Shown here: in pieces, positions 3,988 to 23,268 of the stretch
Position numbering within the stretch: the stretch's first letter is position 1
How the letters are laid out: the number at the start of each line of letters is the position of its first letter
Source of the DNA: a virus
IMG/VR virus record: IMGVR_UViG_3300030329_002075
Location: 1-25,381 of that record
Reading direction: 5' to 3' (one strand)
DNA length: 25,381 nt
Made by a program: the position numbers and the translations under genes
The notes under the pieces: model-generated
Told to the model about the DNA's origin: nothing
What the model saw: the letters and a program-made list of their open reading frames with translations, nothing else
Databases searched by the model: none

Positions 3988-4398
3988 TTATAATATTTTA
4001 ATCATTTCGGTTGTATATTTACTTCCTTGTACAAACCCTAAATTTTCATACACATTTACCAAGCTTTTATTATGTAATAAAGCATATACATAACGCATGC
4101 CTGATTTTTTACAAACATTTGTTAACGTGTCTATTAACAGACTAAATGCTTGTTGTCTGTTTTTTCTATTTTTATATTCCATATTTGATATCACCCACTC
4201 ACACCAACCTACCTTTGAATTGGTAATATAAAAAAACCCTGCACATATAGGGGTATCGTTATCTGACACCATAAAACCTCCTGTGCCGTTGTCAGGTAAA
4301 AAATCTTTTGGCGGTGGCGTCCAACGCCAATCTTTCCACCATTCTACAAGCGTATCCTCGTAGTCACTTTCTGTGAGTGGACGTATATTTAATTTCAT
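3988..4398 (-). CDS. GNAT-family N-acetyltransferase
   Basis: 136 residues with the layout of a GNAT fold: an N-terminal strand (KLNIRPLTESDYEDTLVEWW), a central beta hairpin (GGFMVSDNDTPICAGFFYIT), the region that should carry the acetyl-CoA loop (YKNRKNRQQAFSLLIDTL) and the typical C-terminal YENLGFV at 117-123. The CoA loop lacks the usual Q/R-x-x-G-x-G/A spacing, so the substrate cannot be guessed and activity is not certain. It is the first gene of the ejection-protein unit. A TATCTTTG element ends only five bases before its ATG, so its mRNA may have almost no leader. Acetyltransferases of this type are common among marine phage structural genes as I recall; a role in modifying a virion or host protein is a guess. 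Confidence 0.72.
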   Translation of the reverse strand: MKLNIRPLTESDYEDTLVEWWKDWRWTPPPKDFLPDNGTGGFMVSDNDTPICAGFFYITNSKVGWCEWVISNMEYKNRKNRQQAFSLLIDTLTNVCKKSGMRYVYALLHNKSLVNVYENLGFVQGSKYTTEMIKIL

Positions 4399-19506: not shown

Positions 19507-21753
19507 TTATTGTAATATTTCACTAAGAGAACCTCGGTTGTTATATCTTGCAAAGTTAATGCTTATTTTTGATTTTTTTTCTTGGGGAGTATAAACATGT
19601 TTTTGGTTTGCCATAATCGCTAATCCCGCACTAATTGTAGCATCATATTTAGTTCTGTTATTAATATTAAACCTTGCCCAATCTTCTAACGTACGCGTAA
19701 AATACATTGTTCCCATATCTCCTTGTTCTCTGTATGACCCTGTCATATCTAAGCCCACATGTTTTTCTATATAAGACTCAATGGCAGTGGCGTGTGACTG
19801 CTTGACATCTTCTGAGCTATTAGGTATTCCACCTAATTCTTTTTCACTTTTAGATAGTTTATTGTAAGTTCTATCTGGACGGTTTAAACTAAAGTTGCGA
19901 TAGCCCCTATTTTTAAAATGATACAACAAACGAGGTTTATTATTTTCCGCTAAAATAGGCATTCCATAAAACACACAAGCCATTAACACTTCTTCAAAAA
20001 ATATCTCTGCAGTTTGAGGACGAGCTACGTATTCTAAAAAAAACTCTGAGCTAGGCGCATTGTCCATATTAAATTTTGTCATTCCATGTAACGCACCATT
20101 TGACCCTCTACCTCCCACTGTTCCTGATATATCATAAGAGTCACAGCCAAATGAGCCAATATGTTCATTCCCTGGATATTTTTTTCCTTGTCGTATGGAT
20201 ACATTATTTTGTAAAGATTTTTCAGGAAGCCATGAAACTAAAAACCTACCTTTATTATTAGGTGTCCAAATTACTTTACTATCTACTTCTCCATTTTGCC
20301 AATGAAACGATCCTCGTGTTAAAAAATGTTCTTTAATTAAAGAATCATTATAATCTATTTGTTGATAAATTTTAGTTAAGTTAAATAAAGACTGCTTGCT
20401 TTCATCCCTAAACGCATGTGATTCGGTGCGAGGAAATTGACGATAAAATTCATTTAAAGCATCAGCGTCACTTTTTAAAGAACTTACTTCGTTTTCCCAA
20501 TAATTTATTGAACCTAAGTTTATATTTTCTTTATCTATTCCTTTCACACTTTTTTCAGGCGTATAAAAAACAGGCATGCCATGTTTGTCTATATACCCTT
20601 CAAAGTTCCATTCCATAGGAATAAATAAAGAATATAATCCTGATTTTGTTTCACCGTTTGCATTTCGTGTTGTTACATGGGAGTCATTAAATAATGTTTT
20701 AAAATTATTTCCTCCTTTATCTAACGCATTGGATGTAGAGCCCATCATACATTTTCCAATAATTTTACTTCCTAATCGTAAACATGTTTTTGTTACCCTC
20801 CAGTTGTTTAAAATGTTTTCTGGCTTTTCCCATTTTCCTGACTCGTCATGAATTAAAAGTTGTAATTTTTCTCCATCATAACTATTGTCTGAAGTATTTT
20901 TCCAGTCTATGGTGGTGTCTAAACCTTCTAGCTCTTCTACTTCAACATTATACATGTTCTTTTTTGTAATCTTAGATGCAGGCACACGATAGGCTAATTC
21001 TGTTTTAGGTTTATCCATACCATCCTGAATAGGTTTAAAAAAGAAAGGATAGTTGTTAGATATAGGAACAACCTTATCCGTAAACATTTTTTTAGCATCC
21101 CCCCCTGTTTTAGATAAAATTCCTATTCTAGCGTCTCTTGAAATAGTGGCTGTGTTTACTCCCTCACACGAACCCATAAAAGAAAATCCCGATCTTCTTA
21201 TTTTTAAATAACACATTCCAAACGAACGGCTATCCGCTTTACATGCTTCCCAAAAAATATAAAATATTCTATTAGCTTCTCGATAATCAGGATATCCTAC
21301 ATCTATTTTTGTCCACTGTAAATACATATAGTGCGTTCCTGTGATGTAGGTAGGGATGCCGTTATTCATAAACCACATTCCTTTTTCTCTTCGGTCAAAT
21401 TCTTTTTCAATGTAATTAATCCACTGTTGTTTAAACACGTTGCTCATTTCATTCCATTGAAATATAGATTTAATTCTGTCTAAGATTTTAGGATAAGAAA
21501 ACCTTACCCAATATTGATTATGAGGTTTATCATTTCTTTTATAACAAATTTTAGGAGTATAAGGTAATCCTATTAATAAACCATTGATGTTATATATGTC
21601 TCCTAACGTTCCATCTTTAGAAATAATTACTATATCATATTTTTTATTATACCCATATTCCCAATTTTGACGTTTGTTTTTATTTCTTTTAACCCTATTA
21701 GGAACAACCGTATTTTCTATAGTATAAAGATTATTTAGATTTTCTTTCTGCAA
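19507..21753 (-). CDS. terL: Terminase large subunit (packaging ATPase and nuclease)
   Basis: 748 residues. The ATPase part shows Walker B at L-L-I-H-D303-E304 and the coupling motif G338-S-T-S. The Walker A equivalent is K184-I-R-R-S-G-F-S: no GK[ST], but the pattern matches the deviant P-loop of lambda gpA (K-S-A-R-V-G-Y-S), with Lys at the front. The nuclease part has the RNase H-like acidic set: D538 in S-F-G-C-D-S-Y, E603 in P-I-L-A-E-N, and D704 in K-Y-D-A-T-I-S-A-G-L-A. It drives DNA into the prohead through the portal and cuts the concatemer. The gene overlaps the upstream 90-residue gene by 23 bases and abuts the portal gene, so translation is probably coupled. A 120-residue N-terminal extension before the ATPase core is longer than usual and has no recognised function. 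Confidence 0.88.
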   Translation of the reverse strand: MQKENLNNLYTIENTVVPNRVKRNKNKRQNWEYGYNKKYDIVIISKDGTLGDIYNINGLLIGLPYTPKICYKRNDKPHNQYWVRFSYPKILDRIKSIFQWNEMSNVFKQQWINYIEKEFDRREKGMWFMNNGIPTYITGTHYMYLQWTKIDVGYPDYREANRIFYIFWEACKADSRSFGMCYLKIRRSGFSFMGSCEGVNTATISRDARIGILSKTGGDAKKMFTDKVVPISNNYPFFFKPIQDGMDKPKTELAYRVPASKITKKNMYNVEVEELEGLDTTIDWKNTSDNSYDGEKLQLLIHDESGKWEKPENILNNWRVTKTCLRLGSKIIGKCMMGSTSNALDKGGNNFKTLFNDSHVTTRNANGETKSGLYSLFIPMEWNFEGYIDKHGMPVFYTPEKSVKGIDKENINLGSINYWENEVSSLKSDADALNEFYRQFPRTESHAFRDESKQSLFNLTKIYQQIDYNDSLIKEHFLTRGSFHWQNGEVDSKVIWTPNNKGRFLVSWLPEKSLQNNVSIRQGKKYPGNEHIGSFGCDSYDISGTVGGRGSNGALHGMTKFNMDNAPSSEFFLEYVARPQTAEIFFEEVLMACVFYGMPILAENNKPRLLYHFKNRGYRNFSLNRPDRTYNKLSKSEKELGGIPNSSEDVKQSHATAIESYIEKHVGLDMTGSYREQGDMGTMYFTRTLEDWARFNINNRTKYDATISAGLAIMANQKHVYTPQEKKSKISINFARYNNRGSLSEILQ

Positions 21754-22003
21754 AACCTTGAGTATTTTTAGTGTTAGAAATAGGACTGTCTATAATTTCT
21801 TTTTCAGCTTCAATGCGAGAAAGAATTTCAAACGCATCAAAGATAGCTAGTTTTTTTGTTGCCGCAGCGTTTTTTAATCTATCAGCTGCTAATTCATCGT
21901 CAGGATCAGGTTTAATAATATCTTCTTTAGCTACTTTAATTAGTTGTTTTACCGCTTTTCTTCCTGCTTCAATAATTTGTAATTTTATATCTTCTGTTTT
22001 CAT
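21731..22003 (-). CDS. Candidate small terminase subunit
   Basis: 90 residues, overlapping the start of the large terminase gene by 23 bases. It is helical throughout: MKTEDIKLQIIEAGRKAVKQ, then AADRLKNAAATKKLAIFDAF, then EILSRIEAEKEIID, ending in a basic tail. Small terminases in many phages lie just before terL and bind the packaging site through an N-terminal helix-turn-helix with a central helical oligomerisation part. Here no clear HTH is seen, so the call rests on position, size and helical character. A terminase accessory protein is the alternative. Confidence 0.5.
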   Translation of the reverse strand: MKTEDIKLQIIEAGRKAVKQLIKVAKEDIIKPDPDDELAADRLKNAAATKKLAIFDAFEILSRIEAEKEIIDSPISNTKNTQGFAERKSK

Positions 22004-22013
22004 AATATTAGAG

Positions 22014-22484
22014 TTATTTTTTTTTTAAAAAAGTTACTTGAATTAAACGAGACAAGTCGCCTTTTCCAAAATTTTCATATATATTTCGAGAATGATTAAG
22101 GTGAGCATCAAATACAATCATTCTATTATATGCCCCCACAAACATACACATAGGTTTTATATTATTATCATATAAAGTTGTGCCGTTGTATAAATTTTCT
22201 TGTTTATTTAAATATGTAATAACAGTTAAGTCTCCCATCATATCATCTTTATGAACAAAATTAGGCTCGGTTTGATCTAAAGGAGATTGTCTAACAAAAT
22301 TTAAAGCAATATTATAAGAAATAAATTTTTTTAAAACAAATTGAGCAATTTCGTCATTACCCCGTTCTTTAACAGACTTAAAAATATCGTTGCCTATAGT
22401 TACATCTTCAAACCCATTTTTTAATATTTTTTTTACATAGTCATCAGGGTTTTTTAATACATTGTTGAAAATATGTAAAATCAT
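22014..22484 (-). CDS. 2-oxoglutarate/Fe(II)-dependent dioxygenase-like protein
   Basis: 156 residues with the iron-binding facial triad: H78-K-D80 after PNFV, then a distal His in AHLNHSR (H131, or H128). The 2-oxoglutarate-binding Arg is probably R146 in LSRLIQVTF. Between them lie the expected jelly-roll strands (DLTVITYLNKQE, GTTLYDN, MFVGAYNRMIVFDAHL). The HxD ... YLN ... G-T ... F-x-G ... H-S-R layout resembles the DUF6445 group of dioxygenases. Such enzymes hydroxylate proteins or small molecules using O2; the substrate is unknown. The gene starts four bases inside the GroES-like gene (ATGA) and ends 10 bases before the small-terminase candidate, so it is surely co-expressed with packaging genes. 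Its short length means only the catalytic core is present. Confidence 0.75.
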   Translation of the reverse strand: MILHIFNNVLKNPDDYVKKILKNGFEDVTIGNDIFKSVKERGNDEIAQFVLKKFISYNIALNFVRQSPLDQTEPNFVHKDDMMGDLTVITYLNKQENLYNGTTLYDNNIKPMCMFVGAYNRMIVFDAHLNHSRNIYENFGKGDLSRLIQVTFLKKK

Positions 22485-23044
22485 AATTTAATTGTAATGT
22501 TATTTGTAAACATTCTATATAACTTTTCATCGTCTATATAAAACTCATATTCACTTTCTGGGGTAAAAGAAACTCTATCATTAACTTTTACTCCTAATTT
22601 TTCTAACTCTACGTTTCCATAACGTATCGTTCCTAACAAAGGCTCTTCGTTTCCTCCCTTTAAAATTATAGAATCTTCTAACGGTATCGGCTTGATAAAA
22701 CAATATTTAGAATGAGACCTCCATTCTCCTTTATGTTTGTATAAAAAAAACTGATCAAAATCTACAAAAAATAAATTTTCTTTAAAAAAACTTCTTCCGC
22801 TACGCTCTCTTCCTTTCATGTCGTAGTAGTATTTAAAAACATTATGATGCACCACCAAAGTATCTCCCTTTACTATTTCTCCTTTGTATCCTAAAGGAAC
22901 TTCTACTACTGTACAAAAACGATTGGATGCTTTATGGTCTTCTTGAGACGTGCTTGTAATTAATTCTACTTTTCCTACTTTTTTGGTGTTATTATATCTT
23001 TTATTATTAACAGGAGTAACAATAAAATAAAAAGGAGATTGCAT
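22481..23044 (-). CDS. Double GroES-like (co-chaperonin-type) protein
   Basis: 187 residues that read as two GroES-type beta-barrels in tandem. Domain 1 (about 5-105): FYFIVTPV, a mobile-loop-like stretch KVGKVELITSTSQEDHKASN, then TVVEVPLGYKGEIVKGDTLV (compare GroES G-E-V-L-A-V-G ... V-K-V-G-D-I-V) and a closing NLFFVDFDQFFLY (compare V-L-I-M-S-E-S-D-I-L-A). Domain 2 (113-187): CFIKPIPLE, EPLLGTIRYGNVELEKLGVK, VNDRVSFTPESEYEFYIDDE and KLYRMFTNNITI, again the barrel order, but with a shortened loop (LKGGNEEP). Phage co-chaperonins such as T4 gp31 replace GroES so that GroEL can fold the capsid protein. I infer a similar role here. The gene overlaps both neighbours by one and four bases. Confidence 0.65.
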   Translation of the reverse strand: MQSPFYFIVTPVNNKRYNNTKKVGKVELITSTSQEDHKASNRFCTVVEVPLGYKGEIVKGDTLVVHHNVFKYYYDMKGRERSGRSFFKENLFFVDFDQFFLYKHKGEWRSHSKYCFIKPIPLEDSIILKGGNEEPLLGTIRYGNVELEKLGVKVNDRVSFTPESEYEFYIDDEKLYRMFTNNITIKL

Positions 23045-23268
23045 TAAAAATTAATGTTATATTCTACTGAAACAGGCATCACCTGGTTAAACTCTTTCCA
23101 CAATACAATTTCATCTTCTTGTTGTATCCAGATTTTATAAGAACAAGAGTCTTTGTCATATTGAATAAGATGTATTTTATATGAGCCACCTAACACCTCT
23201 TGATTAGAGATATAGTGCATTGCCCCAGATTTGTAATCAGGGCCTATTGATATTTTTCTAATATCCAT
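23044..23268 (-). CDS. Small protein of unknown function
   Basis: 74 residues starting MDIRKISIGPDYKSGAMHYI. It looks beta-rich with alternating polar and aromatic residues (SYKIHLIQYDKDSCSYKIWI). The D-I-R-K-I-S-I-G-P-D-Y-K opening is one I recall from small proteins in marine phages, of unknown role, often beside co-chaperonin-type and dioxygenase genes. The stop shares one base with the ATG of the GroES-like gene (TAATG), so the two are likely coupled. It could be a partner of that protein; this is inference only. Confidence 0.6.
   Translation of the reverse strand: MDIRKISIGPDYKSGAMHYISNQEVLGGSYKIHLIQYDKDSCSYKIWIQQEDEIVLWKEFNQVMPVSVEYNINF

Follow-up and report, generated by a model that had tools for sequence, protein, structure and literature searches.

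What does a protein that resembles two GroES co-chaperonins in one chain do beside the packaging genes of a phage? The window analysed here is a virus record of 25,381 bases, a fragment in which phage structural genes are present, and the protein, 187 aa long, is encoded on its minus strand (22481-23044). In the direction of transcription it is preceded by a small gene of 74 aa (23044-23268), and followed by a 2OG-Fe(II) oxygenase-like gene of 156 aa (22014-22484), a 90-aa gene (21731-22003) and the gene for the terminase large subunit, TerL (19507-21753; PHROG 6681, E 5e-177), all on the same strand. Overlapping start and stop codons join the 74-aa, 187-aa and oxygenase genes, with TAATG coupling the first two. 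Elsewhere in the window, a small gene amid the structural genes (3988-4398) reads like a GNAT acetyltransferase, judged from its sequence.

A conserved tandem family in phages of marine Bacteroidetes

The open reading frame of the 187-aa protein is a real and strongly conserved gene. Its match to the profile of PHROG 13932, 'co-chaperonin GroES', has an E-value of 4.1e-20 and places residues 1-183 on positions 1-195 of 200, and the profile is also matched by all 57 aligned members of the family. This alignment of 57 sequences, from which two rows from annotated records were left out, was used for the conservation as well as for the AF2 model, and the two-part layout is preserved in all of it. 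In IMG/VR, 437 relatives were confirmed in one scan and at least 599 in a second; a scan of viral contigs with the sequence from Maribacter phage Panino as query gave no relatives. The cultured relatives are Flavobacterium Elemo phages, Cellulophaga phages phi38:1, phi40:1 and Calle, and Panino. The phages of PHROG 13932 are the Pervagoviridae Calle/phi38:1, Elemovirus and Panino, with phi18:3 of the Pachyviridae as a more distant relative, and its members belong to the same family as the 187-aa protein and hold the same place before TerL.

The phage relatives already carry the label co-chaperonin GroES or Cpn10 in PHROG 13932, in RefSeq and in a published study, where 'chaperonin cpn10' is listed as a core protein of the Pervagoviridae (PMC8776804). 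Neither the annotations of the PHROG 13932 members nor the passages covered on them mention a tandem form, and no description of a tandem GroES in phages was found in the literature covered, which is incomplete. Tandem co-chaperonins have been described for plastids and the apicoplast, and chloroplast Cpn20, a chaperonin cofactor of plastids, has two GroES domains joined head to tail as its hallmark (PMC5780408). The 187-aa protein belongs to a family of probable Cpn20-type tandem co-chaperonins in marine Bacteroidetes phages; the family is already named and its architecture is known from plastids. The preliminary description of this DNA, which spoke of a new architecture, was overstated in this respect, given the precedent of Cpn20 and the annotation of the cultured relatives.

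Fold, homology and anatomy of the two halves

The AF2 model of the protein (pLDDT 90.5, pTM 0.82) consists of two GroES-type barrels, and not of a single unrelated one. The N domain covers approximately residues 1-106, and the C-terminal domain residues 107-187 (22481..22726, minus strand), with a short variable loop, a helix where GroES has its roof hairpin, a G/N-D turn and a closing strand. The norm in the Pfam family Cpn10/GroES (PF00166) is a single barrel of about 95 residues that forms a homoheptamer, whereas here two barrels share one chain of 187 residues. The best PDB match to the model found with Foldseek extends over residues 1-187 and is 7ekq_R (E 2.8e-5), a chain listed as 'Cpn20 co-chaperonin subunit' in the PDB sequence search; VIA-align gives Z 10.2 for the same chain, with 157 residues aligned over 1-187. 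Single-domain GroES chains match residues 107-187 with a Z of about 8, and the predicted fold of the N half rests on the whole-chain match to 7ekq_R.

The two halves differ in how well their sequences can be linked to GroES. By sequence the C half is GroES: in hhalign it matches the cellular GroES profile at E 3e-8 and a probability of 95%, as compared to 0.3 for a reversed-profile control. The N half, compared with a phage and cellular GroES profile, gives E 0.0015 and a probability of 17% over colinear residues 7-65, against 0.15 for the reversed control, and this match is weak on its own. The N half has diverged too far to establish the link by itself, and the link is made through gp096 of Cellulophaga phage phi18:3, a similar two-domain protein. 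For the N half of gp096, the match to phage GroES has E 2.4e-5 and that to the N halves of the tandem family 1.9e-12, and the full-length comparison with the family gives 5.2e-15. Together with the two-barrel model and the whole-chain Cpn20 match, these results bear out the earlier reading of a tandem GroES-like protein, directly for the second half and by way of phi18:3 for the first.

The 187-aa protein itself scores 13.4 bits against PF00166, under the curated cut-off of 21.1. The cut-off is passed by its relatives in phi38:1, phi18:3 and the record L186, with several relatives passing in the C half, and 15 of the 59 tandem-family members match Cpn10 at E<=0.01. A PDB search with the alignment as query pointed to GroES at E 0.06. 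With the single 187-aa sequence as query, the same type of search returned only YabJ (E 0.09-0.14), which we judged to be a chance match.

Compared with each other, the N and C halves give E 0.027 in hhalign, and their mutual recognition is confined to the G-D turn. A recent internal duplication of one domain was rejected for this reason. It implies that any duplication is old, or that different GroES lineages were joined in the fusion.

In the N domain the mobile-loop region spans residues 11-42 (22919..23014, minus strand). It has the lowest confidence of the model, 66-76 per block of ten residues, which marks it as flexible, and yet it is conserved, with a mean of 2.7 bits for residues 12-41. 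A hairpin is predicted within it at residues 20-29, and the hydrophobic stretch V-E-L-I lies at the position of I-V-L in GroES. An acidic or similar residue is found in the middle of this stretch in 47 of the 57 aligned sequences, and five of the 57, of Elemo type, have a canonical G-L-I/V-L loop. In phi18:3 gp096 the loop is K-T-E-S-G-L-E-L, which is nearly canonical. The corresponding loop of the C domain (residues 122-132) is short and variable, and it is the least conserved stretch of the protein (1.75 bits). This agrees with the initial observation that only the first half keeps a long segment of this kind, and the conservation of one loop together with the variability of the other suggests that there is one docking loop per chain.

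The two short strings first noticed as turns of GroES type, K-G-D-T-L-V and V-N-D-R-V-S-F, were located at residues 59-64 and 154-160. In the first half the G-D turn is nearly invariant, 90% or more in the 57-row alignment, and it is followed by an insert that is not present in GroES. The turn and the start of the insert occupy residues 60-78 (22811..22867, minus strand), where H66, H67, N68 and G78 are invariant in all 57 sequences; the H-H-N motif, within residues 60-73 (22826-22867), has no counterpart in GroES. Furthermore, the roof hairpin of GroES is missing from both domains of the model: there are no strands at residues 49-61 of the N domain, and residues 145-149 of the C domain form a short helix.

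The closest known systems share some of these features. Chloroplast Cpn20/Cpn21 also has two head-to-tail GroES barrels in a chain of about 190 residues, and it occurs alongside single-domain Cpn10 and Cpn60, as the phage protein mostly does alongside single-domain GroES and GroEL. The tandem protein is, however, encoded by phages, and does not belong to the plastid or apicoplast of a plant, an alga or a parasite. It also differs in that its halves show no mutual profile match beyond the G-D turn, in the N-domain insert with H-H-N, in the short variable loop of the C domain and in the missing roof hairpin. The phage co-chaperonin T4 gp31 lacks roof loops and has a longer loop; it is a single-domain protein that forms a heptamer of identical subunits, with host GroEL as partner (PMC6318259). 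The GroES fold and the absence of a roof hairpin are common to gp31 and the tandem protein, but gp31 has one domain where the latter has two barrels in its 187 residues.

Neighbouring genes and chaperonins in the related genomes

The neighbours were counted in loci with enough flanking sequence, 180 on the upstream side and 142 on the downstream side. The 74-aa gene lies upstream of the tandem gene in 179 of the 180 loci, so that the small partner initially proposed stands as a conserved neighbour, coupled by the TAATG overlap. Its product is all-beta by prediction and of no known family. The model is poor (pLDDT 71.7); Foldseek gave no significant fold match, and the best VIA Z was 3.7. Phage phi18:3 has both the tandem protein and TerL, and no homologue of the 74-aa gene was detected in its first 50 kb.

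On the other side, TerL is found downstream of the tandem gene in all 142 loci, and the oxygenase lies between the two in 16 of them. A sister phage, L001, shares 99.1% identity with the window across 6,008 bases and 97.7% across 2,904 bases, but lacks the oxygenase, and there the stop codon of the tandem gene directly overlaps the start of the 90-aa gene. Compared with L001, the oxygenase is a clean insertion (22011-22480), flanked on both sides by ATTATGA, a string shared with L001 at the insertion point. Its absence from such a near relative implies that it is an optional insert. The dioxygenase had been suggested to belong to one set of accessory assembly factors, and this was rejected because it occurs in 16/142 loci and is absent from the 98-99% identical L001. 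The PHROG labels of the oxygenase, 'minor coat protein' and 'DNA endonuclease V', look misleading beside its weak Pfam 2OG-Fe(II) match.

The 90-aa gene precedes TerL in 116 of the 142 loci. Its product weakly matches residues 72-149 of the phi38:1 TerL (E 0.014), and judging from this sequence similarity it possibly corresponds to the N-terminal part of TerL in Elemo, Calle and Panino, where TerL is longer (876-879 aa). The phi18:3 proteins annotated as found in the virion by mass spectrometry include the portal and tail neighbours of gp096, but not gp096 itself. This fits an assembly factor, as an argument from annotation only.

Chaperonins are common elsewhere in these genomes. Among 24 long related records, GroEL was found in 19, a separate single-domain Cpn10 in 19 and both in 18, where single-domain Cpn10 was counted if above the Pfam cut-off and present besides the tandem protein. 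The parent contig of L001 has both GroEL and GroES. In the literature, GroEL is reported for the same phage group (PMC5332604), GroEL and GroES are reported for Panino (PMC11590407), and the GroEL of phi38:1 was detected during infection and found to be methylated (PMC13288928). Phage phi18:3 has a single-domain GroES (L343:31108-31362) and the tandem protein (L343:41458-42060), and no GroEL was found in it, which would leave its lids dependent on the GroEL of the host.

The GroELs of the related phages (L341, L188-L199, L203) retain D52, D87 and D398, the residues of the ATPase. In the GroES-binding groove most of them have E at the position of L234 in E. coli and A at V263/V264. The E at L234 implies that GroES binding may be altered, and the pairing with the lid may be specialised. 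The separate GroES of these phages (phi38:1 gp007, Elemo gp44) lies near GroEL and not near TerL, and mostly has a canonical loop of the S-G-L-L-L type; its roof is 9-12 residues as compared to 15 in cellular GroES. The tandem protein shares the GroES family with it but has a second domain. With a canonical GroES beside GroEL in the same genomes, a lid would be available even without the tandem protein.

Putative role of the tandem protein

On balance we lean, with some reserve, towards a putative phage co-chaperonin of the Cpn20 kind, encoded together with head and packaging genes. Its likeliest function would be to serve late head and packaging proteins as a second, Cpn20-like co-chaperonin. 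Mixed rings of Cpn10 and Cpn20 with seven domains have been described (PMC5780408), and by analogy several tandem chains, probably together with the single-domain GroES of the phage, may form the lid on a GroEL ring, the GroEL being the phage's own where it is encoded and otherwise that of the host. The first domain would dock by its mobile loop, and the second, having lost its loop, would mainly build the ring. With its truncated roof the dome would be wider, like that of T4 gp31, and suited to large phage proteins such as capsid, portal or terminase. We infer GroEL binding, the composition of the ring, its substrates and its timing from fold, homology, loop and roof anatomy, the TerL context, the co-occurrence with GroEL and GroES, and the ATPase residues retained in the phage GroELs. 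Counting against a co-chaperonin are the canonical GroES already present beside GroEL, the acidic-centred loop (47/57), the N-domain insert with H-H-N, the E at the L234 position in most phage GroELs, and the tie of the gene to TerL rather than to GroEL.

Some of these features could point to the main rival, a GroES-fold protein that no longer caps GroEL and has a direct role in head assembly or packaging, for instance by acting with the 74-aa protein as scaffold or adaptor for TerL or portal. The fixed neighbours on both sides (TerL in 142/142 and the 74-aa gene in 179/180 loci) speak for such a role; GroEL is already accompanied by a separate GroES, the loop is altered in most members, and the invariant H-H-N and the insert lack a GroES counterpart. 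Against it stand the conserved N-domain loop, which is canonical in the Elemo-type members and close to canonical in phi18:3, the GroES sequence signal retained by the C domain, and phi18:3 itself, which has the tandem protein and TerL without a detectable 74-aa homologue in 50 kb. We regard this alternative as possible but rather doubtful.

Two further readings are of little weight. The closest solved structure, 7ekq, is the entry of a ClpP complex, and it could be imagined that the tandem protein caps the Clp protease of the host and protects phage proteins, like chloroplast Cpn11/20/23 with ClpP in 7EKQ. What the protein resembles is Cpn20 itself, though, which in plastids is a chaperonin cofactor (PMC5780408), and no pointer to Clp was seen in these phage genomes, which makes such a cap very improbable. 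That the protein is not GroES at all, by chance resemblance or as a GroES-like barrel of alcohol dehydrogenases, seems more improbable still. Dehydrogenase barrels do match residues 1-108, with Z up to 4.9, and the window protein alone is under the Pfam cut-off. The results of both the profile and the fold comparisons already contradict this reading, since Cpn20 spans both halves at more than twice that Z, GroES chains also score higher, the C half has its profile match and other members of the family match Cpn10.

Returning to the Cpn20-like co-chaperonin, a wider and more tentative idea is that marine Bacteroidetes phages run a chloroplast-like set, with their own GroEL, a single-domain GroES and a packaging-linked tandem co-chaperonin, in which mixed lids would give a wider and specialised cage for head proteins. 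We hold this to be possible, though on the unlikely side. If true, the division of labour between Cpn10 and Cpn20 would have arisen here independently. How even-numbered domains fit a seven-fold ring is a question raised for the plastid and apicoplast proteins (PMC5780408). GroEL, GroES and a tandem chain in one genome, with cultured members such as phi38:1, Calle, Elemo and Panino, make a small genetic system that bears on this question, and on why some phages bring their own chaperonin. The tandem family is common in public viral contigs, and its function therefore bears on many uncharacterised phage assembly genes.
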